NCBI GenBank assembly: GCA_037783415.1
Contig: JAZGTN010000096.1
Coordinates: 1,178,001-1,242,000 of the forward strand
Length of the DNA: 64,000 nucleotides
Origin: Leptasterias polaris
Lineage: Eukaryota > Echinodermata > Asteroidea > Forcipulatida > Asteriidae
Direction of reading: 5' to 3'
Positions 5,301-54,425 of this stretch are shown here, piece by piece (position 1 is the first letter of the stretch; each line of letters opens with the position of its first letter). The notes under the pieces are model-generated. The model saw only the letters and a program-made list of their open reading frames with translations. It did not search any database and was not told the DNA's origin. A program made the position numbers and the translations under genes.

Positions 5301-8300
5301 TTGTGTGCATTGGCGATATCGATGTCTCTATCGAAACAAGGAAATTGTGTGGAAATGGTCACTTATTTGACTAAGAGTAGAGTTAATACCATTATGTACA
5401 AATTAAATTCTACTTCAGATGACTGAACGACCTTCTTGCTTAATATTATTTCCGATTCAAATCTACTTTTATACAAAGTCGTATTCTGCCATTATATTAT
5501 TCCCTAAAACTGAAAGGGATGTTGCAAAATTGTTGTGAAACACATCACGAAGTGTCTTAAGAAACGTTACATTTTTCTTGTATTATTATGAAGAGTTTTT
5601 TTCAAAAAGATGGGTGTGTTTTATTGTAAAGAAAAAAGCCTAAGCTAAGTAAACACTCTTGACTTCGCTACAGGCTACCGTCACCGATTATGGAGGTTTC
5701 GATGCAGACAGTGACTGTCAGATCCTGCGGAAGGCAATGAAAGGATTGGGTGAGTATTAGACTTGGTTCCAAGTCTGTGCTCGTGGTTTTTAGTCTACCT
5801 GATAGCTAGACTTGTTGACAAGTCGTTAATGATGGTCGCGGTGGGTCGAGTCGCGTGAGGTGCTGCAGCATAATAAAGAATGCTCTCGCGAGATCACTGC
5901 TCTCGCGCGAAGTTGCTGGCTGCCGACTCTTCGTCATTAACGACTTGTGAAACCCGCCGGCGGTACATATTCATTTATTCATGTACGGACACAGTGTACA
6001 TTACGGTTGCTGTAGCGACGATCATGAAGACGAGTCCATTTTATCTAAGGGTAGTACTAATTTTAGTTACTGTAAATGTACTGAATGCTTGCGCTTGAGA
6101 CATCTGTGGGTGTATTTTGTGGGTGTTAACTCCTTCATTAATTTAGTAACTAAAGAAATAAAGTAAACTTATCTTAAAATTCATTATTATAATAATTGTT
6201 TAAGATGTGTGTTTTGCCTCATAAAAATAAATAATGCCTACCGTGAATAGTTTCTGATACGCTCCAATCATTTAACCCGATGTGTTCTACAGTAATTGTG
6301 TTATAAGTGTGTATAAACAACATACACGGAAACCAGTCAACTCGCCCCCCTAGCAAAGTCGCCAATTTCAAAAAACACATGTACAAAGTCACCAACTACA
6401 AAGTCGCCCCTAGCAAAGTCGCCCCCTGACAACAAACTCGTCCCCTCTCATAGTCGCCCCTCACAAGGGAATTTAACAAATTTGTGTGATTGGACTACAG
6501 GGCTTCGAAAGCTATCTTAAGGGAACAAAAGCTAGCTATCTTAAAGGAATGAAAGAGGAATTTTGGGGAACAAAATCTCATTGCGAAGGAACGGGAGCGT
6601 ATATTAAGGGAACGAAAGCATATTTCGGACGAATGAACGTATGTTTCGGGCAACTAATTCAAAGTCGTATTTTGATGAATCGAAAGCTTGTTTTCAGGGA
6701 AAGAAATCTCCTTTCGGTGGAAAAAATAATTTTTATTGAACGAAAGCATATTTAGAGCGAACAAAATTATATTTTGTGCGAACAAAATCATATTTCGAGG
6801 AAACGAATGCGTATCTTTCAGGGAACAAACGCGTATTTATGGGTAACAAAATCGTATTTCGGGTGAAAGAAGGCGTGTTCGAGGGAACAAAAACGTATTT
6901 TCTAGGAAAAATCTATTTTGCTACCTAGAAAAACACAACTTTGTTTACAAATTTAAAAAAATTAAATTTTATGTGACAACATTATATTTTGATTGAATTA
7001 AATAATATTTTGAGGAAACTACTTGACTTTGTTGGAATTTTGTGTGTCGAGAGTGGAAAAAGAAATTCAGAGTGAGAATTTTTTTTCACATTTTAATTTT
7101 AAATTTATTTTTCACCTTCAGGGGCTCTGGTTTTGTGTGATTTTTTTTTTGGGGTGGGGGCTCGTTTTTGTCTCACAAATTGTTTAACTTAATTGCACCG
7201 TCAATATAAGAGTGGTTTTCCTATTTATTGACATAAATCTTATTTAATTTCCAAATCGGGGGAAAGGAACGTACACCGAACATTGAAACGTAACGATTTT
7301 AAAACAGCGGATTCGATCAGCGAGGTTTACCGACTAACAAACCCGCAATGACAAGGTAGTTGGTGGTCTGGCTCCCTACCCCCTCCCACATGTTCATGAG
7401 CTTCCAGGTACAGCTATCTCTTGGCATGCTAGCTAGGGCCGGGTAGGGGTTTCCGTCGTGCTGAGCCCCGGCCGAGAGAAACTCTGCGCGCCATGGCATG
7501 CAGCTACACGATTTGCCCGTGTGTTTTACGTCATGTCCCCACACGCTGTGCACTGTCAAACACGCTCGGACTCTCTGAAATAAAATCTTACGTTCGATTT
7601 TTTGTAATTATTTACAAGTTGTACCCATAATTTGAATACGTATTTTCTTGTGTCAAAATATTTATGAACACAATCACTCTCACCACTCAGTGTTTGGTTT
7701 TGATCGTGCATGATCAAAGCAACATAAAACTCCATCCAGTACAGGATTTGATGTTTAATATTCATCTACTGTTTGAATATTCATAGATATAACGAAATTG
7801 ACCAATCAGATGCGTCCGTACAAATTCGGCTGAAGTGCCCATAGGCCGTGCACAAACCGCCAGCGGGTTTCACAAGTCGGTAAATGCGACCAGTCGTGAG
7901 AGCAGTAATCTCGCACAGAGCAGCCCTCTCGCGGGTTATTGCGAGAAAGCCGTTCCGCTATCACCGCGACAGACATTTAACGACTTGTCCACAAGTCTAC
8001 CTGATAGCCAATACAATTGCCTGAAATAGCGCCCTCTTGTGGATTAACCTCCGTCTTTAACCTCTGACATAGTGTTGTTATGTAAATGTAAGTTGTGAAT
8101 AAATGAATATCCCGTATACACAAGTCTGTATTTAGGACATAGCAAAACAAAAAATCACGGTTTGCTATTTCGCCCGGGCGATTTACTATTTCGCCCGGGC
8201 GATTTACTTATTCGCCCGGGCGATTTACTGTCGTTTTTAGTCCTGTTATCCATGCCCGTGTGTTTTCACTAAGGCATGAATTAAGGCATGTCTTTCCATC

Positions 8301-11300
8301 GAAGTACGCGGTATAATGCGATTGCGATCTAACACTAACCATGTCCTTGCTCATATCTATGCACTAACCAAGGACATGAAGGAGGTAGAGTTCTACCGCG
8401 TTGCACCATGGAGGTGTACCTCCATGCACTAACGTACCAACGACAGTAAATCGCCCGGGCGAAATAGTAAATCGCCCGGGCGAAATAGCAAACCGTGTTT
8501 TGTTGTTGTTGCTATGTCCTAAATACGCTTCCGTACGATAATGTGGGCATTCGACGTTTTGACTAGCCACCGTGCGCTATGTGTAAATTAAAGTGACTTA
8601 TGGGCCCTTTTTATTCAAACCTCGGCTTTGGCTCGTGCTCGGGCTTGGGCTCCGGCTTGGGCCTCCACCCTCACAATTTGAGCAGAGAACACTTTTTTTG
8701 CACGGTGTTTCAAACAACATCAGGCGGAGCCCGGAGCAGTGGCGTAACCGGATATTTCCATTTGAGGGCAAGCCGGGACCAAGACACAATTTGGGGGTTA
8801 TGTTAAGTATGCTCTGAAATTGTTTTGATCTCATTTTTATCTTTTTCTTTGTATTTATTCTTCTTCTTCTTATTCTTCATTTTTATTTTTTATTTATTTT
8901 TTTATATTTTTTTTGGGGGGGGGGAAAGGTGAGTGAGGGGCTCTGCCGATCCCTGCCTCCTTTTGTTACGCCACTGGCTCAAGCCGATGTTTAGAAAAAT
9001 CAGTGGGAAAGACTAATACTCCCTAGCCTCTAATAATTTGCTATTTTATTTGGCTGTATGATCAAGGGACTGACGAAAAGGCGATAGTGGACATTTTGGC
9101 CAACAGGAGCAATGCTCAAAGACAGAAACTGATGGTTCAGTACAAAGCTTCATTTGGCAGGGTAGGTATGCTAAATCTTTTCAGGGCGCTGTGTTTAAAA
9201 GTAAAAATCTGTTATCGCATTCCCTAAAGGATTATTACAACCTCTATGAGTCTGTTTGCAGAAAGTGGTGGTAACTTGCGGGAGATATTCCACACTTTAG
9301 CTGCTCTAAGAACCTACATAACAATCGCCTTGTTTTGAACCTCTTAAATATCAAACAATGACAGCTACAAGTTACAATGCTTTTTTGACACTAAATCTGA
9401 TAGGACCTTGTCAAAGATTTGAAGAGTGAGCTAGGGGGTAACTTTGAGGACGCCATTGTCGCAATGATGGATCTACCAGGAGTGTTTGATGCCAGGTGTC
9501 TCAAGAAAGCCATGAAGGTATCGTAAGCTTAGTTCCCATCGGCCTTAGTTTGGCTTATAGTTCTAAAGTCTTATAGTCTTGATTCGGATAATCAGATATA
9601 GTTCACTTTGAGTGCTGGGTAAAAAATTTCTCTAATTTAGTTAATCTATTTTTTTTAAAAGTCCATCCGCCTTGTGCACACGTCCACTGATCTTCGTTAC
9701 AATGGCTGGATATACAAAAGCTGTTAATTAGTTTTTGTGCTGAACCATGCATTATGAATTTTCCAAACAGTTTGGCTTGCAGGAAATGTGAAATGTGCGA
9801 AGGATGCTTTAGTTGCGAAAACCAAACAATGCTAAAGACCTACTTGAACGAAAATGTCATGAAATTCATTTAGAATGTGTTCAATTAATAAGGAAATTGA
9901 GTTCATTTGAGATTAAACAGGTTTTAACTGTGTACAAAATAAATCTTTAGAATACCCTTCTCCTGTGCTTTTCAGAAAGTCCTTTTACGTCACCACTATA
10001 TGTTACGTCATGTGGGAGCTCCGTTTTATAGGGGTAGAACAAAGTAAACTCCCACATGGCGTCGAAGTATTGCCAATATGACAAACGCCGTTAACGGCAG
10101 AAGTGTTTCTAGTTTTTCAAAACCTTGAGGTGGGGGCTTAATTTTTTGATCGATAATTACGCAAAATTCAGAAGTGTAAAAATATCTAAACTATATATTA
10201 AAAAGATAAACAAACACATCATGAACAAGTTTAAATGGCATTCCCGTTAAAAGAATTTCGCTCAAGTATCTGTTTAATAAACCACATTCCTATTCAATCT
10301 TAGAAATGTTGACCGGATATGAGGATATAGGGATTTTCAACAATTTCTTTCTGGTTGCTCAAGCCCCCACCCCAACCTGCACGCCACTATCTAATGTGTA
10401 AGAAGGAAAACAAACTGTAGACTGCTCATTGTTAATGCGTAACGTTGATTTATTTGTTCTCACACGTACATTGTTTCTATTAATGGTTTAGGGGCTTGGT
10501 ACCGACGAGTCTGTCTTGGTGGAGATCATGTGCACAAGATCAAATACGGTATGTAAGACGCGTTTAAAAAATCATTTTGTTGTTGTTGTTCTAATTAATA
10601 ATCTTTGGGGTAAAGAAATAACCATGGAAACAAAACAAATCTGAATAATTATGACAAAAGCGTAAAAAGGAGACGGGAGGAGGTCGTTGAAGTTGCACAC
10701 CTACTACCCATCCTGGTCCCTTTGCTCACAAAATGGCGGACCGTGTTAGTTCACGCAAAGGAAACCTCGCAATTTCAAGGGATATTTTTGTGTGAATCAT
10801 ATCATCTACTTTAAAAACATCTTTCCAACCATATTTATTTCATAACAAACGCTTTCAAATGCTTTTTATAACCCAAACCGCCCAATCCTAGGCAACATGT
10901 TCCTGACTCACACGGTTTCAAACAATTTTTGAGAACCATTGGTTTTACCACTTGAAGGAAATCAATAAAGTGGCACTTTAATTAACGGGTGCTAATTTGA
11001 ATACATCAGAGACTTGAACAGTCTATCAAATCAATACCCGCAATAATAATTCGAGGTTAATTTTCGATCTTTATTATTGTTTTGGTAGCAAATTCAAGCC
11101 ATCAAGGCAGCTTTCAAAGCCGGTAAGTCATCTTTCAATAAACGATATAACAAATTTAAAAAAATGATATTTTGTATCTGAATGTTCGATTATTTACACA
11201 GTTCCAAAAATCCTATTCCATATTGTTTTCAATGCAGATTATGGCAATGATTTGGAGAGTGCATTAGAAAGTGAAACCAGTGGCGACTTCAAGAGGGTCC

Positions 11301-32200: not shown

Positions 32201-35200
32201 CTTACCAATGTTGTACACACCCTTTAAGTTAAGTTGCAATTTCCAGGTTGCACACCAGGAATGTATTTTATCTAAATCATACTGTAAAGACGCACAATCA
32301 GAATCATTAAAAACCTGACGGAAAACCTTCATATCATCTGCAAATAGTAAAGATCTGTTCGTGAGACATGATGGCATATCATTTATGAACAATGTAAATA
32401 AGACCGGACCAAGTACAGAACCTTGAGGTACACCTGAAGAAACTGGATACCAGTTAGAGCATTCCCCATCAACAACTACTCGATGTTCCCTTCCACCTAA
32501 ATAATTACGCAGTAGACTTAGTAATTGGGGATGTATGTGATATGAAGCAAGTTTGTGAATAAGAAGGTTATGATCAACCCGATCAAAAGCTTTCGAAAAG
32601 TAAGTGTACATGATGTCCAGCTGCCCCCTCCGATCAACTGCAGAATAAGCTTCCTGTAATAAATGCAGTAAGATTGGTGGTGCAATCCCTTCCAGGTACA
32701 AATCCATGCTGATGTTCAGAGATAGCAGGCTGGACATGACGTACAAGTTGTGTACACAAGACCCCCCAAACACGTTAGAAACAAGTGGTAACAAAGATAC
32801 TGGTCTATAATTTGCTACATTCTGTTTTTACCGGATTTGTGAATAGCTACAATGTTAGCAAGTTTCCAACATGCAGGAAACTGACCTTCACGTAGAAATC
32901 TTTTGAAAAGATAAGACATTGGGCTACACATGATAGTTGCAAATGACTTCAAAATGAAGCCAGGTAGGTTGTCTGGGACACAAGCTTTATAAGTGTCTAT
33001 GCCCATAAGTTCACGCTCTATGGCAGTGCTGTCTATGTAAATGGGTGGCATAGAGTCCAAATTCGCTGGTTGAGTGTCTGGTAGGATGTCATTATCCTGG
33101 GAAGATGTGAGGTAGACGCTTTGAAAATGTTCCATCAAAAATGCTGCTTTACTGACGGAGTTGTCTGCATGCCTCAATGAGGGCGCTGTTTGAACAGTTG
33201 ATATTAACCCTTTCAGTACCGCCGTGCCATAGCGGCTCAAAAAAACATCCCACTTGGTGACCACTGAGGCATTATGGCACGTAATTTTTTCCACTGTAAT
33301 TGACCATTGAGCCTGGCTGGCTCACAGGTGTATTGTAAGTTATAAAAATGTAAATAGCGCCCTCAATCGCCCCGTGCGTGCATCACCCCGGCAACAAGCT
33401 GCCCGCGTGTGCCCTGAAGCGTCGCAAGTTTTAAAATTTAAGCGGGATCGTTAAGCGTCCCCCCCACGCATTCTCGAGTAAGAGATCATTCTGACAGCAT
33501 GGCCGATGAAAATGAAAAAAATTTGGAAGAAATTTTTGCAGACAGTGGTTCAGAAATGTCATCTGACGAGGATTCGCCACTTGATGACTCGGAGACAGAA
33601 GACAGTGAGGATACAGAGCCGAGGGCCTCGACATCAACAGCAACATTAACCTCTTCTAAGAAGGGTAAGAAGACCAAGAAGAAGCCGAATTTCAGGTGTG
33701 GATGGCGTGAAGCCAACTCTTACACACGGCGACCGCCTGTTAAATTTACAGCAAACACCGGGGCTACAGAAGACTTCAGTTCGTTCTCCCCCATACAAAT
33801 CTTCAAACTGTACTTTTGTGAAGCAGTGTGGCAGATTATGGTACTAGAGACTAATCGTTATGCTGAACAAATATTGGGAGCGGGGGCAGAAAATAAGCGT
33901 GCTTGGAGACCAACTAATGTACCTGAAATGATGGCATTCGTGGCCCTACTTCTTTGCATGGGAATCAACAAAAGGCCTCGTTACTCCATGCATTGGTCCA
34001 GGTCTGAAATTCTACGAAGTCCCCTGTACTCAGCAACCATGGCTCGTAACCGATTTACTGCAATCCTAAGATTTGTTCACCTCGCCAATAACAGAGATGT
34101 GAAGAAACGTGACTGTGTTGTATGCAGTTCGACCTCTAATCGGAAACAAACTCGCATGATTTGTAAGCAGTGTATCAAGCCAATGATTGAATTGTTTGAA
34201 AGTACAAGTATAGCACTTTGGCTATATATAATGTTATTTAATGCGAGTTCCTTCTTTGTCATTAAATGTGGTAACAAATAATTGTTTGGATTAAAACCTT
34301 CTGTTTATTTTTGGTTTCATAAACCAATGTTATAATAATCAAAATGGCCGCCTTTTAAAAGCAACTGAACCACCATTTTTGTATTTGCTCTCATTGGGTT
34401 CCTTCATCCTGAAAACATGGCAATTTTATTTTTTATCTGTGAGGCTCGTAGACGGAGATACGGGCCAAAACCGAATTGATTGGCGGACATTTTGAAATGG
34501 GCAATATTTAAGTTTATTTTATTTCAGTTCCTTCTTTGTCATTAAATGTTGAAAAAAAAAATAGTTTTGATTTTAGCAGTAATTTATTTCTAAGTCATAT
34601 TGTGCGTAATCCAAACTCTCTTGTTTATATTTAATGTCCAATCCTAGGAGCGGGTTGGGGGGGGGGGGGGGGTGCTTCAAAAGAAATTTATTCAAACCTT
34701 CTGTTTATTTGAGGATTCATAATTTGCCAAAATTCGAAATGGCCGCCTTAACCAATTGATCAACTATTTCATCCTGAAAACATGGGTATAGTCACCAACC
34801 CCCAGTATCTGTGAGGCTCAACCAACTTTTTTTTTTGTGGCGGGTTGGGGGGGAGGATGGTATTTCGAAAGTAATTTCTTAAAACCTTATGTTTATTTAA
34901 CGTTTCAGAAATAATTTTCATGCAGATTGGTATGAACAGACAAATGTTTATATTTCACATTTAAACTACTCAATTGTGTATTTAGTGGTCATAATACCAT
35001 ACCTCAAATATATGTTAAAGGCAATGATTTAGTCCAAGGCAATATGCCAAAGGAAACAGTAATTTAATTGCTTGCTTGTACAACTTGCATTATGTTACTA
35101 GGACCTAGGCTAACCCCAATCTGCCTTGTGAGGGCGCTGTAACCTAAAACTTTCCTAAATAGTGTTGGTCACCAGGTAGCCATGTCAAGGAAATTTCTCT

Positions 35201-38200
35201 GGTCACCATTGCACTAGTAGCAAATATGTGTTGGTACTGAAATGGTTAAGGGGGTTCAGAGACTAACGTGATGTGATCCAGAAAAATGAGCCCAATAAAT
35301 AATGTGAAAGCGAATTGAGAAACAGGCTAAAATAGTGCATTTTGTTTTTGAGATTTTGTTGTTTTAAATATAAATTCATACATTTATCATATGTTAAGTT
35401 GTCAAATGTGAATAGAACATTAAAAAGGAATTAGGTGTTCTGAAGCAATCCCAATCTCGTTTTTGTTGCAAAAAAAAGTGGCAAAACGGGACGGGCCGTG
35501 AATATGTAAAAAAAAAAAACAGCTCTATGAAAAAAACGTGTCATTGAGTTCAAACCCAGTCGTATCACGAGATTGGAAAATGAATAGGGACTCATAAGGG
35601 GACAATGATCCTGTATAAATAAGAATATTCATAAGAAGGTTCCGCGTTGAATCTGGTAAACAAACCCTTCTTGTAGCGATGAGACAACTTTCGCGCATCG
35701 CGGTTGACCAATTGGGATCACGAACCATATCAGGCGATATAAACACGTGATCTCACTGTGTTGCGCAGATGCCGATGTCCTAGGAAAATCTGTCCCAGGA
35801 GATTCTGTCCCCGTATGGGAAATTAACATCGGCTGAAGGGGGTTGATTCAAAACGGCGTTATCTCAGAAGAAGTTTGTACATATTTTCGCCAAAAGGGGC
35901 GGGGGCGGGGGGGGGGAATCTCATGCCACAGCGGCCTCAACATAGGTCCAATCAAGTGATGGAATTGCTGCAGCTCTTATAAATTCGTGTGACCATACAT
36001 TTTGCAGCAAATGAGGTACTTATGGTGGCCCTGAAGGGACATCGCACATCGCAAATATCTTTGCAAATATTTGCGATGTCGTAAATATCTTTGCAAATAT
36101 CTTTGCAAAGATATTTGCGACATCGCAAATATTTGCAAAGATATTTGCGATGTGCGATGTCCCTTCAGGGCCACCATAGGTACTTGACTAGTTAAGCAAT
36201 TTATTTCAAGACTATTCTGAGTGTGATGAAGAGGATGACATCAATGATAAAGAAGTGGATTCTTGTCGGGAACCAAGACCGATTCACTCGGTTGATGGTG
36301 ATGTTGATGGTGATGTCAATGGTCCATTGTAATCGTAAATGTACATGCAGCGCTCTACCAGCACCACTGTCATGACGATTTCGAGGACATTGCCATCAAC
36401 GATTATGCAGAATTATAAGTACAAACAGTTTGATATGGTGTTCCATATGTGCCACTCCTTTCCGTCGCCTTTTCCATCGTGGGTCCACGTGACTACCAGG
36501 TGACTATCACATGACTCCGAAGGAAATTCGACCTTTGGGAGGCATACCGCAGTTGCCAAAATGTATACGTTGCTTCATCCACAGTCGAGACCAGATAACT
36601 ACGATAATATCCTTTTTCGGTTCCATTCTTGATTTACTAAGCAAAGCCTGTACATAGACAGTATGGTTGAGGTATCCAATCATTTTTCTTTGCCAACAAA
36701 TCATCACATGGTCATCATGTGACGGTCACGTGGCCGATTCAGAAAAAAAATGCGTCTGAAAAATTGAAAAGGCGACGGACAAAATTGAAAAGGCGACGGA
36801 CAAAATTGAAAAGGCGACGGACAAAATTGAAAAGGCGACGGACAAAATTGAAAAGGCGACGGAAAGGAGTGGCACATATGGAACACCATAGTTTGATTAC
36901 CTGTCCTTATAAAGATACGTGTATGTCTACAATTTAAGAGCAACACAATTTTCTCAACTCGTTGCTCGGGAATTTATGTATGGCTCCCATTTCGCAATGA
37001 AAGAAAATAGTATGCTCAATATACAACTCAAACTTCAGATCCCCTGTTCTCAGTTTAATTCTCTTACACCTTAAAGCAAAGATTATGCTCTTTTGAAAAA
37101 ATATAAACAATCAAACAAAACAAAACAAAACAAAACGCACCCTCCCCGTAGAAAATGACTAGGGTCGACAAAGGACTATAATTTTGCTTGATCGCACCAC
37201 AAAATGTATAGTTAAAAACCTCTATATCAAATGAACATGAGGTATAGTCACATTTAAGAAATGATAGGACGAAGTTAGTTGAGATCGAGGCATGAATATC
37301 AATGCTCCGTGGCACGGGCTAAACAATGTACAACTTTATGTTCTTTTTATACAGACTGGAATGTACAATTACTTCAGTGACGATAAATGACTGAATGAAG
37401 AAGATGCCCTTTAGTGGTTGGCTTATCTACTTTTTTCTATACTTGATTACAATCAGAATATAAGAAAAAAATTGACCTGGAAAATAATTGATAATCGATA
37501 ACAAGCCGTTAGGTATTTTAACTGTTTGCTGCTTTTTATTTTCTACACTGTAAAAACGGCGTTTAGAATCTAAACACATTTCTAAACGCCTCGCTTGTAC
37601 CCACTTTTTTCACACGTTTAGCCCTCAACATGTTTAGATTTGGCGTTTCTGATGACATGTTTACCCCGAGACACATTTAGCCTGTGATACGTTTAGATTG
37701 AATGTGTTTAGGGTTCATAGTGAGTGCTAAACATGTTTAGAATCCAACACGTTTCAGAGAATAAGCTTAATTTTTAAACACCTGAAGAAAAGAAAAGAGA
37801 AATGTTGCAACATTCGCCTGCCTGCTTACTGAAACATAACGCTCAAGCTACGCTCGGCATGAGAATCGATAAATCATCATCATCTCAACGGTCATCATGG
37901 AGATGATTTGAGGAGCAATGATGCCATAATTTCAGTCATACTGAAAACGGTCATTTTGAAGTCTCAGAATCCGTTCCAATTATATACATTTTGGGCTTTA
38001 CTTTCTACCCATGGTGTGAATCTTTGAAGTGCTGGCCAATATGATACAAAAAAATTTGCTTCAATTGAATTACACACATTAAAGTGTAAACTACTGCGCA
38101 GAAAAGGCTGTTATACCTACAATGGTTTTGAATAAACACCGAGATCTATATTTGTGCATATTTAATGAAACCCCGCCCATTTCATTCTAAACAAACTGAT

Positions 38201-41200: not shown

Positions 41201-44200
41201 CAGATAGATACTTTTATTTTGAAATTAAACAGCACACATTTTTAACACCTCATTTATTTTATTTCTCCCCTTCATGATCTATGAACAAGTAACATGGCGT
41301 CATACTGATCTGTTGCTGTGGAGTGAGGCTGGTCAACCCTGTACAGTACCTCGGAGTATATGATGATGTGCGATGAAAATATCCTTTGTTTTAATTAATG
41401 TACATGTAGTTAATGTTCGTAACAAGCCCATATTGTCAGATGAGTGAGTTGGGTTTCCAGGGAGGGAGCACGGCTCAACGCTGCCATTATGGGAAGACAC
41501 TACTGGAATTCGTCCAATCAGACCTGGATAACAATTTCGAAAGGGGAGGTGAGCTAGTTTGGTTTGGGAAGTCTTTCCTACTTGACAGGTGTCTTCATGC
41601 TATGCATCTTCCTCGGTAGATAAAGGGGTGGGCCTCAGTTATTTCTCGCAAACTCGCGTGAAGCTTATGCACTGGGGTTTTAAATTGATGTTGCTCAATA
41701 CTTTTTAAGTCTAGTGTGGGCCTTTATTTTATTGATCGGGTTCGAAGTTAATTTCTCCAATGTAAATACGTAACTAATTTTAGTTGGCCCGATAATATTT
41801 TCTTCAGTGATGGCCTATATTGATAGGGCTCGGGGTTCATTCCTTCAGTGTGAGTCTTTTGTTGAGAATGTTTTGCTGCAGAGAGTGGGCCTGTACGTAA
41901 TTATTTAGTTGGCTCGAGAATAATTTTCTCCAGGGTGGGCCTTTACTTTAATAATAATAATAATAATAACAACATTTATAATGCGCACATATCCACCCCA
42001 AGGGATGCTCAAGGCGCCTAACAAGGTATAGAAACATTAAACATACGAAAGTACATGAAAAGTTACAAAGAATGAAAATAATTTACATCAGGTTGTGAAA
42101 TATACTACATCTAACTAAAAAATTAAGACATTAGATAGGTTTTTAAGTTTTTTTTGAACAAATTTTGATTTGCTGACATTTTGATTGAATGAGGTAGGGA
42201 ATTCCATAACTTGGGGGCAGCAGCTATAAAAGCTCTGTCACCCCAACTCCTCTTAGTTTTAATTTCTGTTAACTTTGTGGAAATGGAGGAACGAAGACCT
42301 GCACGAGAACCTAAAGAGATACTGAGAAGAGAGGAAATATAATCAGGGACAAATCCATTTAGTGATCGGTAGGTGAGTAGTAGAATTTTATATTTGATAC
42401 GCTGTACTATTGGAAGCCAGTGAAGATTTTTGAGTATTTGAGTAATATGGGTCGAACGTTTAGATTTAGTGACAAGGCGGGCAGCTGCGTTTTGAACCTT
42501 TTGTAGTCTGTGAATTTGGTATTTAGGAAGTCCAAAAAGGAGAGAGTTACAGTTATCTAGATGAGATGTCACAAAAGCATGAATCAATTGTTGAGTGGTT
42601 TGGGGGGTTAGAAATTTCCTAATAGCGCGAAGATTACGCAGATGATAATAGGCTGCTTTCACACAGTTTGAAATTTGTGCATCAAGAGACATGGCTGTAT
42701 CGAAAATAACACCAAGATTTCTTGCCTTATCTGAAGGAGCAATGTGCACAGAACCAACACATATATGAGTAATTGCAATCTTGGAAAGTTGTTGTCTAGA
42801 GCCTAACAAGAGAAATTCTGTTTTTTCCTCATTTAGTTTGAGATAACAATCATTCAACCATTTCCGTACATCACGAATACAACTTTCAAGGTCGTCAATA
42901 CGTTTTTCTACCTGCTCTTGAATAGGAAGACATGAAAAATATAATTGGAGATCGTCTGCATACATATGATAGCTTATATTGTGTTTACCGATTATCTCAT
43001 GAAGTGGTAAGGTATATACATTAAACAGATGGGGACCTAAAACAGATCCCTGAGGCACAGAAAACTGAAGGTTAACAACCGATGAAGTTGTATTATGAAG
43101 GTTACTTTATTATGGATTGGGCTCGAGGTCCATTCCTCCAGTGTGAGCCTTGTGTTCTTTTATAGTTGGCTCGAGAATATTTGCCTGCAGTGTAGACCTG
43201 TACGTTATTATTTACTGGCTCGAGAATATTTTACTGGCTCGAGAATATTTTGGGCTCGAGGTGTTATCCTCCAGGGAGAGTCCTTTGATACGTAAATGGC
43301 TGGAGAATAATTTTGCTCTAGGGTGGGCATAACATTATTATTAGTTGGCTCGAGAATAATTTTCTCCGGTGTGGGTTTTTACTTCCTATGGACAGTGCTC
43401 GACGTTGGACTCCTCTGGTGTGAGTCAGTTGTTTTGTTGGCTCGAGAATATTATTTTCTTCAGCGTGGTCCTTTACTTTTTTAATTTAGTTGGCTAGAGA
43501 ATTGTTTCTCCGATGTTGGCCTTTAAATTATTATGGATTGCCATAATTTTGAAAATGTTTCTCACTGACGTTGATGAATTGTGCATGCGTCAGCGCATTC
43601 CAGTGGCATTGCAGAGGTATGTTTCCCAATTTCGAACCGCTGGGTGAAAGCACAGTGCGCTAAACTAGGCGCTCATTATTTGCCGCACCCACAATATTTG
43701 TTTGGTCGGAAAGGATGGCGTGCATTTGCCCACACTGGGCACCAAACTCTTTTGTGACAATTTGCACGCCCGTGTTCTTTCGTGGTATTTTAGGTGTTTC
43801 TCCCTGTGGGACACGCGTTGCGCGTTTGGCGTTTTTTCACGGGATTGACACCGAAAATACAGAGTCTGGTTAAAATTAAATTCAATGTTTTACTTTTCAG
43901 CAAAACTTTTGCTTAATCAAGTTATCAGTAAACTTATAAATTAGTGACATGCATTGTTACAAGAAGTTGTGATAGCGCTCTGATGTACCACAGGGGCTAT
44001 TTCTGTATGATTACTATATTACTGTTGTTAAATTTCATTGGGCCTTGTGTGCCCACATGATTTAAGTCAGTTCTACTGACATGGTTGGGGTCAGGTGTAC
44101 CCACATAATTTAAGTAAGTTTTACTGACATGGTTGGGGTCAGGTGTACCCACATGATTTAAGTCAGTTCTACTGACATGGTTGGGGTCAGGTGTACCCAC

Positions 44201-49921: not shown

Positions 49922-50981
49922 CAGTCTGTTAATCACTGGTATTACTCGAACTCTTTACCGTCTACGTGGGGATTGAAAATCGAAATTTGACACAGGGGAG
50001 ACTCTTACAACCTGGATCACTTTTTGTTTTGTATCGGGCATATTAGGCTATATTGGTTACATGATTCCCTCAGTTTGTTTTCCCTTCTCCTTTTCTTTAG
50101 TCCCCTTCTTTTTCAATTTTTCTTCTTTCTTTCTTTCCTTCTTTCTTTCTACCATTCCTGTCCTTTCCCTCTTTCTCTATAAGGGGCAAGCCACCCGTGG
50201 TGCCACCCCTGCGGTTAATAATTGCTAGGTTGAAAATCATTGTCATTTTGTCTGTGCATTAGAATCATGCATAAGAGCAAAGTTTCTTAAGCTTGCTGTA
50301 TGAAGTATTTGTTTAAATACCATTACTGCGATAAGACAAGTCGAACGACCTGGACATTGTTAAAACTCAAAACAAACAAATACCACTCAGAAGTTGGAAT
50401 TGGCACGATTGTTGTTGATGGGTTTTTTCTGATGTTGATTGCCTATCGTTACCCCATTGCACCTCAAGAAGCCTAGAAAACAAACCTTTAGTGGGTATTG
50501 ACCTAGTAGCCTTTTGCCAAGACCCTCGTGGCTCAGACATACGGAAGCCGGATAGTGCCAGGAAATAAGAAGTGAAATATTTTTTCATGAGCGCGATAAT
50601 ATTTTTTTTGTACCATTTATCTGGCGGCCGCCACTTATTATCCGGCGGCCGCCACTTAATTATCCGGCGGCCGCCACTTATTATCCGGCGGCCGCCACTT
50701 AATTAAGTGGCGGCCGCCACTTATTATCTGGCGGCCGCCACTTAATTAAGTGGCGACCGCCACTTATTATCCGGCGGCCGCCACTTAATTAAGTGGCGGC
50801 CGCCACTTATTATCTGGCGGCCGCCACTTAATTAAGTGGCGGCCGCCACTTATTATCCGGCGGCCGCCACTTAATTAAGTGGCGGTCGCCACTTATTATC
50901 TTGCGGCCGCCACATAATTATCTGGCGGCCGCCACATAATTATCTGGCGGCCGCCACATAATTATCTGGCGGCCGCCACAT

Positions 50982-51699
50982 AATAATCTGTACCACACGT
51001 TCTTTATTTTGTGGATTTTAAGAGGACGGGTCATAGGATTCGGGGGGGGGGTTAAGAGGACATATCGGGTGCGTTCGATTAGCTTCCCCGGGTCGACCCC
51101 GGTCTGCTCATCCGGGTGAGCCCCTAACCATGAACTAATCGAACGCCAACTTCCCCCAGCATTCACACCGATGCATCTTGGGACAGCCGACCGGAACTAC
51201 TTCCATTTTGTGCCTAATTATGTCCGATACTTTCCGTGGATTCACGAAAACATCGTAAAATAATTATTCTCAAGGTAAAACTGCAACATTAAACAATTTG
51301 TACAACCCCACAGTGATACAAAGGTACCCGGCTTCGAATAAAAAATACTTATTGCTCAACGCTGTTGTAATGGCGAAAATGTGTGTCAAACTTCCTAAAA
51401 TGTCCCGCTGAATTACAAACAAAATGGTGGCCATTGAGAAAGTTTTTCGCCGTGACGTCATGAACCAGGGGCAGCCCCAAGTGACCCGCTCCACAAGCAG
51501 GGAACTTGGGGCTGACCCGGGTGAGCCCCGCGAATGACGTCAAAGCTATTCGAACGCACCGGGGGAAGACCTGGGTCGACCCGGGGAAGCTAATCGAACG
51601 CACCCAACATGTCCTCTTAACCCCCCCCCCCCCCCCCCCTGAATCCTATGACCCGTCCTCTTAAAATCCGCAAAATAAAGAACATGTGGTACAGATTAT
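50982..51699. mobile_element. Nested foldback B (AATAATCTGTACCACA ends)
   Basis: AATAATCTGTACCACACGTT through AAGAGGACGGGTCATAGGATTC on the left is matched by the inverse on the right. The arms continue through a G10 run (51042-51051) against a C19 run (51621-51639) and TTAAGAGGACAT against ATGTCCTCTTAA. It lies between the GGCGGCCGCC array and the second small element. Confidence 0.8.
51067..51605. mobile_element. Innermost foldback C (GGGTGCGTTCGATTAGC ends)
   Basis: GGGTGCGTTCGATTAGCTTC (left) and its inverse GAAGCTAATCGAACGCACCC (right) extend to the CCCCGGGTCGACC palindrome. It sits at the axis of foldback B. The flanking octamers GACATATC and AACATGTC match at six of eight positions, compatible with an aged 8-bp duplication as in hAT elements. 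The annexin-sized frames nearby (for example 51349-51603 on minus) have no recognisable domain. Confidence 0.7.
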
Positions 51700-52469
51700 T
51701 ACGGAAGCCGGATAGTGCCAGGAAATAAGAAGTGAAATATTTTTTCATGAGCGCGATAATATTTTTTTTGTACCATTTATCTGGCGGCCGCCACTTAATT
51801 ATTAAGTGGCGGCCGCCGGATAATAAGTGGCGGCCGCCGGATAATTAAGTGGCGGCCGCCGGATAATTAAGTGGCGGCCGCCGGATAATAAGTGGCGGCC
51901 GCCAGATAAATGGTACAAAAAAAATATTATCGCGCTCATGAAAAAATATTTCACTTCTTATTTCCTGGCACTATTCGGCTTCCGTACAGACAGCTTCGTA
52001 GAGCAGCGGTAGAGACTGGAACTCCAGACCACTTTCGGGAGACGAGTGGTGAAGCCACGAGGGCCTTTTTTCAACTCCAATTGTGTGGTTTTTTGTTTGT
52101 TTTTGATGAATTATTCATAAAGTATAAAACAAACAGTCTTAACTTGTGTGCAAATAAGTAAAGCGCTGAACGATTAACCATTGTTAATTTACATAATTTG
52201 TTAATGTACGCTGAACCGCTGACCCCCGTCACTTCTGATTGGTTTGGAATTTTGCTACCCTGTTTTCAAAAATTGACTTATAAAGAAAAACATTCGAAAC
52301 CGCAAACAATTAGTTGGGAAAAGGCCCTCGTGGCTTCCCGTGCGTTGTTTCCCCTTCTTGTCGCTTGGGGGATCGTGGCTGTACGAGGCTGTGCATGCCA
52401 CGAATGTCTTGACAGAAGGCTAGGATTGACCAAAACACAAGGTCAGTTTGTGAGACAGCTTCATGCAAA

Positions 52470-53329: not shown

Positions 53330-54425
53330 CTTGCAAAGTTGTGGTGTTCAGTATAGGTGAAACAAGAAGCTGGATACACCTGCAGGACATCACTTTAATC
53401 TTCCTGATCTTACAAAGTTGTGGTGTTCAGTATAGGTGAAACAAGAAGCTGGACACACCTGCAGGACATCACTTTAATCTTCCTGATCTTGCAAAGTTGT
53501 GGTGTTCAGTATAGGTGAAACAAGAAGCTGGACACACCTGTAGGACATCACTTTAATCTTCCTGATCTTGCAAAGTTGTGGTGTTCAGTATAGGTGAAAC
53601 AAGAAGCTGGACACACCTGTAGGACATCACTTTAATCTTCCTGATCTTGCAAAGTTGTGGTGTTCAGTATAGGTGAAACAAGAAGCTGGACACACCTGTA
53701 GGACATCACTTTAATCTTCAGTGATCTTGCAAAGTTGTGGTGTTCAGTATAGGTGAAACAAGAAGCTGGATACACCTGCAGGACATCACTTTAATCTTCC
53801 TGATCTTGCAAAGTTGTGGTGTTCAGTAGGTGAAACAAGAAGCTGGACACACCTGCAGGACATCACTTTAATCTTCCTGATCTTGCAAAGTTGTGGTGTT
53901 CAGTATAGGTGAAACAAGAAGCTGGATACACCTGTAGGACATCACTTTAATCTTCCTGATCTTGCAAAGTTGTGGTGTTCAGTAGGTGAAACAAGAAGCT
54001 GGATACACCTGTAGGACATCACTTTAATCTTCCTGATCTTGCAAAGTTGTGGTGTTCAGTATAGGTGAAACAAGAAGCTGGACACACCTGTAGGACATCA
54101 CTTTAATCTTCCTGATCTTGCAAAGTTGTGGTGTTCAGTATAGGTGAAACAAGAAGCTGGACACACCTGTAGGACATCACTTTAATCTTCCTGATCTTGC
54201 AAAGTTGTGGTGTTCAGTATAGGTGAAACAAGAAGCTGGATACACCTGTAGGACATCACTTTAATCTTCCTGATCTTGCAAAGTTGTGGTGTTCAGTAGG
54301 TGAAACAAGAAGCTGGATACACCTGTAGGACATCACTTTAATCTTCCTGATCTTGCAAAGTTGTGGTGTTCAGTATAGGTGAAACAAGAAGCTGGACACA
54401 CCTGCAGGACATCACTTTAAACTTC
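53330..54425. repeat. Satellite, 79-bp unit, 14 copies
   Basis: Unit: CTTGCAAAGTTGTGGTGTTC, AGTATAGGTGAAACAAGAAG, CTGGATACACCTGCAGGACA, TCACTTTAATCTTCCTGAT. Fourteen head-to-tail copies differ mainly at GGAC/GGAT and CTGC/CTGT, and three copies lack three bases (AGTAGG for AGTATAGG). High similarity implies recent expansion or homogenisation. There are no unique spacers, so it is not a CRISPR array. Confidence 0.95.

Follow-up and report, generated by a model that had tools for sequence, protein, structure and literature searches.

The palindrome-rich region of the window (the whole 64-kb stretch of DNA that was analysed) is probably one insertion of a young, non-autonomous foldback family of the IS3EU (IS3EU/GingerRoot) type, in which arrays of palindromes probably act as repeated protein-binding sites. 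All 21 GCGGCCGC (NotI) sites of the window were located within 50624-51902, 15 of them at 50624-50976 and six at 51784-51902; 100 shuffles averaged 0.15 sites and never gave more than 1. This agreed with the original prediction, made from the letters of the window, of about 21 NotI-type palindromes in two clusters. Its statement that every site lies within GGCGGCCGCC was correct for 20 of the 21, the remaining one being TGCGGCCGCC at 50903. The sites were also said to lie often in larger inverted pairs; the larger palindrome AAGTGGCGGCCGCCACTT does exist, but with n = 3 in the window 'often' was generous.

The element measured 1,447 bp (50540-51986) and had CAGACA on either side (Table 1). Its outer inverted repeats (50540-50680 and 51846-51986; 141 nt, 99% complementary) and their CAGACA duplication were as predicted, and the expected second small complete element was found at 51700-51986. 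Two further inverted pairs (50981-51051 with 51631-51701, and 51042-51105 with 51567-51630) had midpoints equal to within about 5 bases, as expected for foldbacks nested on one axis. The centre of the outer pair was about 75 bases away from that axis, because the right side contains the extra complete small element.

Table 1. Features of the foldback element in the window (TIR, terminal inverted repeat).
Feature	Position	Strand	Basis
Left target site duplication, CAGACA	50534..50539	.	sequence read
Outer left TIR, 83 bp, begins TACGGAAGCCGG	50540..50622	+	inverted-repeat search
Left array, 17 GGCGGCCGCC-type palindrome units (≤2 mismatches) with 11/12-bp AT-rich linker, period 21/22	50623..50977	+	
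Left stem of family core, CTGTACCAC..., with G run	50988..51066	+	equal core in other copies
Innermost inverted-repeat element GGGTGCGTTCGATTAG..CTAATCGAACGCACCC, later insertion into core	51067..51605	+	copy comparison
Right stem of family core, ending GATTAT	51606..51699	-	inverted-repeat search
Small complete copy, 287 bp, own left TIR, right TIR common with outer element	51700..51986	+	
Left TIR of small copy, 83 bp, identical to 50540-50622	51700..51782	+	
Right array, 6 palindrome units, most in the orientation opposite to the left array	51783..51903	-	
Right TIR, 1 base off left TIR	51904..51986	-	
Right target site duplication, CAGACA	51987..51992	.	sequence read

Searching the assembly of the window's own genome (629.7 Mb, 334 contigs) yielded 379 occurrences of the exact 18-bp end of the element and none of its reversed control, confirming that these arms bound copies elsewhere. 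Its initial 101 bp matched at least 42 places, 41 at 100% identity (40 of 412 candidates scored). Among the first 100 of the 379 ends, 78 formed 39 convergent pairs with spans of 195-2064 bp, comprising 13 short (195-413 bp) and 26 long (709-2064 bp) pairs, and 22 were unpaired. Viral and prokaryotic collections searched with short patterns gave a single match per record in 11, 1, 11, and 9 records (L001-L032), which had 0-8 NotI sites each.

For closer comparison, 34 stretches (L041-L074) together with the window provided 31 end pairs. L043, L060, L065, and L069 were dropped because the second intact end was missing, one extra single end in each of L046 and L067 was excluded, and the right TIR of L057 and L070 was shortened. 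These were the best-scored matches to the window TIR, a choice biased towards young copies. Since L055 and L056 had the same flanks, they were counted once in the duplication tallies, leaving 30 independent copies.

A perfect 6-bp target duplication flanked 24 of the 30 independent copies, so the original prediction was right in treating the foldback as mobile and its target duplication as genuine. In 21 of them it was read directly; in L046, L062, and L072 it appeared once an extra 14-16-bp terminal stub was assigned to the element, the duplication lying outside the stub in all three. Duplications were imperfect in L058 and L066 (5/6) and in L041 (4/6), and L052, L053, and L068 (3/30) had none; by analogy with Galileo, these last may be recombinants between copies (PMC3573991). 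The 24 sites contained no strong target motif, apart from an apparent, weak T/C preference at −3/−2.

Ends diverging after base 16 comprised 25 rows, 14 of which (13 places) had a tandem 16-bp terminus, tripled in one. Such stuttered family ends (TACGGAAGCCGGATAG TACGGAAGCCGG) were seen at, for example, C51:137843 (the triple) and C3:5809429. One deviating end, L085, was a candidate partner and adjoined a 238-aa open frame; neither a second end nor a recognisable transposase was found in the 2,043 bases read.

Members of IS3EU are bounded by TA..TA, with duplications that are usually 6 bp long (PMC10045372), and those of rust fungi have TAYGG..CCRTA termini, 6-bp duplications, and TIRs longer than 30 bp (PMC12730594). 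Termini of this kind, TACGG..CCGTA, were present in the window element and at both ends of all 31 pairs read, including the right end of L045, GACTTCCGTA, which retained the CCGTA ending. With the 6-bp duplications, perfect in 24/30, these ends fit the IS3EU superfamily. None of the 31 family copies read was found to contain transposase coding.

The rva_4 integrase core (PF24764), which we took to be a route to the transposase, had 77 matches in the genome and occurred in 0/14 control genomes. By eye, no match lay within 10 kb of the family ends listed (first 100 of 379 places), and no rva_4 frame was found inside an element with the TIR of the family. Two rva_4 families were read; their open frames, 416 and 424 aa long, were 40% identical over 355 positions. 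In the first (L076/L077, 416-aa frame), the match starts at TACGGTGGCCC after different flanks and runs into an array with a 20-bp period, and the second (L078, with its 424-aa frame at L078:2276-3547 on the minus strand) ends in TACGGAGCTCTGG beside an array with a 53-bp period and inverted pairs. From these neighbouring TACGG ends (one end per family read), we infer that the rva_4 proteins are IS3EU transposases. The TIR of the window element was absent in both families, and a third rva_4 pair (L080/L081) yielded no TACGG-type end. At L083:1-111, two ends of the L078 family stood head to head, 27 bp apart. The alternative route through PF13683 was abandoned: many of its 141 matches lay in frames longer than 1,000 aa, and a 362-aa candidate read by eye as retrotransposon pol and had no TIR.

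The element would be moved by a transposase encoded at another locus, presumably of the IS3EU type and acting in trans, which would bind the TACGG..CCGTA ends, excise the element, and insert it at a staggered target site, duplicating 6 bp.

The arms of the family followed one plan, in which the 83-bp terminal repeat was followed by the array of palindrome units and then by a stem starting with CTGTACCAC. Across the 31 copies, 37 of 62 arms had exactly the 83 bases of 50540..50622. Long copies, L061 and L074 among them, had a G-run minisatellite extending to the central axis and an opposite arm that was roughly a mirror image; the ten short copies lacked the core and consisted of two TIRs and a single array run. 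The family copy at L057:501-2544 had, by eye, a tRNA-like, SINE-looking insertion in its core. Neighbouring units in the 31 copies were 21 or 22 bp apart at 520 of 535 distances, 539 of 586 palindromes were perfect, and five linker types, which differed between core-adjacent and end-adjacent positions, accounted for 493 of 535 linkers.

The arrays probably represent repeated secondary binding sites (21/22-bp palindromes) for the transposase, by analogy with what has been argued for Galileo and Tetris (PMC3573991, PMC4079207). The tight two-turn spacing and the subterminal arrays in two transposase-bearing relatives argue for this role, and two observations weaken it: the palindromes were not better conserved than their surroundings, and copies with three units still had perfect duplications. 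Substitutions per site were 0.90% in palindrome cores, 0.57% in linkers, and 0.63% in TIRs (units with ≤2 mismatches only; L056 excluded, and nine elements excluded from the TIR rate). Greater conservation of the palindrome, tested in the copies read as evidence of function, was therefore not found, and selection on it was not supported. Nor did CpG decay point to methylation, as CpG transitions made up only 7 of the 52 palindrome substitutions.

These rates would also suit passive arrays, lengthened within the inverted repeats by slippage and unequal exchange like a minisatellite and playing no part in transposition. In many long copies, the two arms had unequal unit numbers (3 vs. 18 and 6 vs. 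26, for example), and the three-unit copies with perfect duplications (L044 directly, L072 after assignment of the stub) point in the same direction. However, the spacing was held tightly at 21/22 bp, at least three units were present in each of the 31 copies read, and the arrays with 20-bp and 53-bp periods are subterminal, beside the TACGG ends of two transposase-bearing families. Passive growth is possible, although we consider it doubtful, and binding by the transposase remains the preferred reading.

Comparison of copies showed that the innermost repeat (51067-51605) was a later addition to the core. Of the 31 copies, 18 contained all or some of it; the cores of L061 and L074 lacked it, as did L046 and the ten short copies. 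Eight of the 31 copies had a long tract in one of the arms and a mirrored 145-bp part opposite, the two tracts having one endpoint in common; L071 had the 145-bp part only. Because the endpoint is common, the mirrored tracts point to a single copying event that began in the stem GTTAAGAGGACAT of both arms and was spread later by transposition. The copying itself was presumably by template switch or gene conversion, and the arrays may likewise lengthen, shorten, and mirror by recombination and template switching between arms. The original prediction had proposed repeated insertion into palindrome centres or hairpin-mediated copying. Traces of nested insertion as well as of copying between arms were found, but the supposed second foldback was not a separately inserted element; it is the core common to the family and was seen in other copies. 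Apparent nested foldbacks can thus be the normal core of one element, which calls for caution.

The border between core and array read GATTATTATGTGGCGG in 32 of 33 rows (19 other copies) and GATTATTAAGTGGCGG in one (L050). At the right core border of the window, GATTAT was followed by a new TACGG end. A short sister copy may have inserted after GATTAT at the border between the core and the right array, and the DNA separating the two right arms would then have been lost; we infer this order of events, and a template switch at the common TA is a possible alternative origin of the small copy. The window copy would be a rearranged long form made up of the core, the older inserted element, and the nested short copy. 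It could also be supposed that the left half element, core, and small copy moved as one unit by means of the two outermost ends. CAGACA flanks the entire composite, and the small copy has no left duplication of its own (GATTAT vs. CAGACA), as such movement would predict. The triple-TIR layout was, however, found in 1/31 copies, that of the window, with no second copy to indicate mobility, and movement of the composite is unlikely.

The same lack of a second example, the highly repetitive nature of the locus, the closeness of two TIR matches out of 42 (C11 and C73) to a contig end (about 1.2 kb), and the three copies with unmatched flanks might suggest an assembly artefact that joined separate elements. 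As the basic layout recurs in many contigs with perfect duplications, we regard an artefact as extremely unlikely. Insertion of a short copy into a long one is the reading retained here.

Among known systems, IS3EU/GingerRoot shares the TACGG..CCGTA termini and 6-bp duplications of the family, and the rva_4 integrase-core proteins beside TACGG termini provide a link within the same genome. The window family differs in that no coding capacity was found and its arms are long palindrome arrays. It has the long inverted repeats, internal tandem repeats, and variable length of a foldback. The original prediction knew of no described family with this layout, which did not hold, since the inverted repeats of Galileo and Tetris are long and internally repetitive (PMC3573991, PMC4079207). 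Galileo, a Drosophila foldback of the P superfamily, also varies in the length of its inverted repeats and has chimaeric copies without matching duplications, and its tandem repeats were proposed as secondary transposase sites (PMC3573991). Its duplications are 7 bp (PMC3573991) or 7-8 bp long (PMC4168063), in contrast to the 6 bp found here, which falls outside the 7-8 bp of Galileo and the P superfamily, and the repeat unit of its F subfamily is about 210 bp as opposed to 21/22 bp. Tetris, a foldback of Drosophila virilis, resembles the window family in being non-autonomous and modular, with tandem repeats in its inverted repeats, but has repeats of about 220 bp and duplications of 8-10 bp, the length in Mutator-type foldbacks and longer than the 6 bp found here, and was assigned to Mutator by its authors (PMC4079207).

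Dada has duplications of 6-7 bp, similar to those of the window family, whereas it inserts into specific small RNA genes and its authors detected no TIRs in Dada-U6 and Dada-U1 (PMC3706591); the family described here has 83-bp TIRs and 24 targets without a common sequence. Insertion of the Dada type into a tRNA-like target (flank at about 52000-52070, by eye) was rejected, as targets vary between copies and neither an Rfam family at gathering score nor a tRNA gene (ARAGORN) was found in the window. The target of the window element (window 50520-52070) was itself a small foldback, with CCTCGTGGCT before and AGCCACGAGGG plus a T run after the insertion; another CCCTCGTGGCTT lay near window 52327. 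This target region resembles a small RNA gene or SINE, without an Rfam or tRNA match.

Foldback anatomy and IS3EU are each known. In the open-access literature searched, no paper was found that unites them or describes IS3EU as a foldback. IS3EU-linked repeats have been noted before, as the oyster satellites CgiSat35 and CgiSat47 were annotated as DNA/IS3EU in a table (PMC8268682). The two array motifs were absent from the open-access papers searched, and the 12-bp end occurred there in a single, unrelated paper. A young family with many copies makes the growth of foldback arms readable step by step, through discrete unit types, insertion, the mirrored partial copy, stuttered ends, and copies whose flanks do not match. 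Should the arrays be transposase sites, IS3EU would join the idea developed for Galileo and Tetris of arms that evolve as multiplied binding sites.

Arrays of similar plan occurred outside the family. Clustered GC-rich 10-bp palindromes in 286 kb (the window and L041-L074) included CGCCCGGGCG, CGCCGCGGCG, CCCATATGGG at a spacing of 15 bp, and TGTGCGCACA at one of 42 bp. Five CGCCCGGGCG palindromes at window 8171-8482 and four CGCCGCGGCG palindromes at L046:352-444 were both spaced by about 21 bp, and the linkers of these two arrays resembled GGATAATAAGT (counted by eye). Such a 21-bp plan filled with different GC palindromes would be expected if shape were the signal, with GC-rich palindromes extruding hairpins or cruciforms that a transposase or repair enzymes recognise, and with growth by hairpin-primed copying. 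The mirrored 145-bp arm-to-arm copy is consistent with this, and the window element folded as single-stranded DNA into a single long hairpin with side hairpins at −607 kcal/mol (a value without a shuffle control). However, the array unit of L076 is not a perfect palindrome, and ordinary gene conversion can also give arm-to-arm copying; we consider a shape signal quite unlikely.

Even less probable, and very unlikely in our view, is that several transposon families share a 21-bp module, composed of an RRATARTAANT linker and a GC-only 10-bp palindrome (GGCGGCCGCC, CGCCCGGGCG, or CGCCGCGGCG) that varies in sequence and keeps its dyad symmetry. By eye, four of the five common linkers of the NotI family fitted RRATARTAANT worse than GGATAATAAGT did. 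If such a module existed, the signal would be symmetry or hairpin shape and not base sequence, and foldback arms would be hairpin-based recognition arrays copied from arm to arm. Repeated binding sites for the transposase remain our preferred explanation of the NotI-type arrays.

The CGCCCGGGCG array belongs to a second, unrelated foldback at window 8131-8523, with the TIR TTTAGGACATAGCAA, an apparent TA duplication, and five TCGCCCGGGCGA palindromes at 21-bp spacing. At L046:341-470, six units, each about 21 bp long and with TCGCCGCGGCGA-type palindromes, formed an array whose AT-rich linker was like that of the 8131 element. An inverted-repeat element with TTATAA ends was present at window 36414-36911, and its right arm contained five exact 21-bp repeats of AAAATTGAAAAGGCGACGGAC. 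The window also contained a 79-bp minisatellite (53330-54425; 13.9 copies, 97% matches), a PiggyBac-type transposase fragment (33442-34278; DDE_Tnp_1_7), and a reverse transcriptase open frame (42123-43103).
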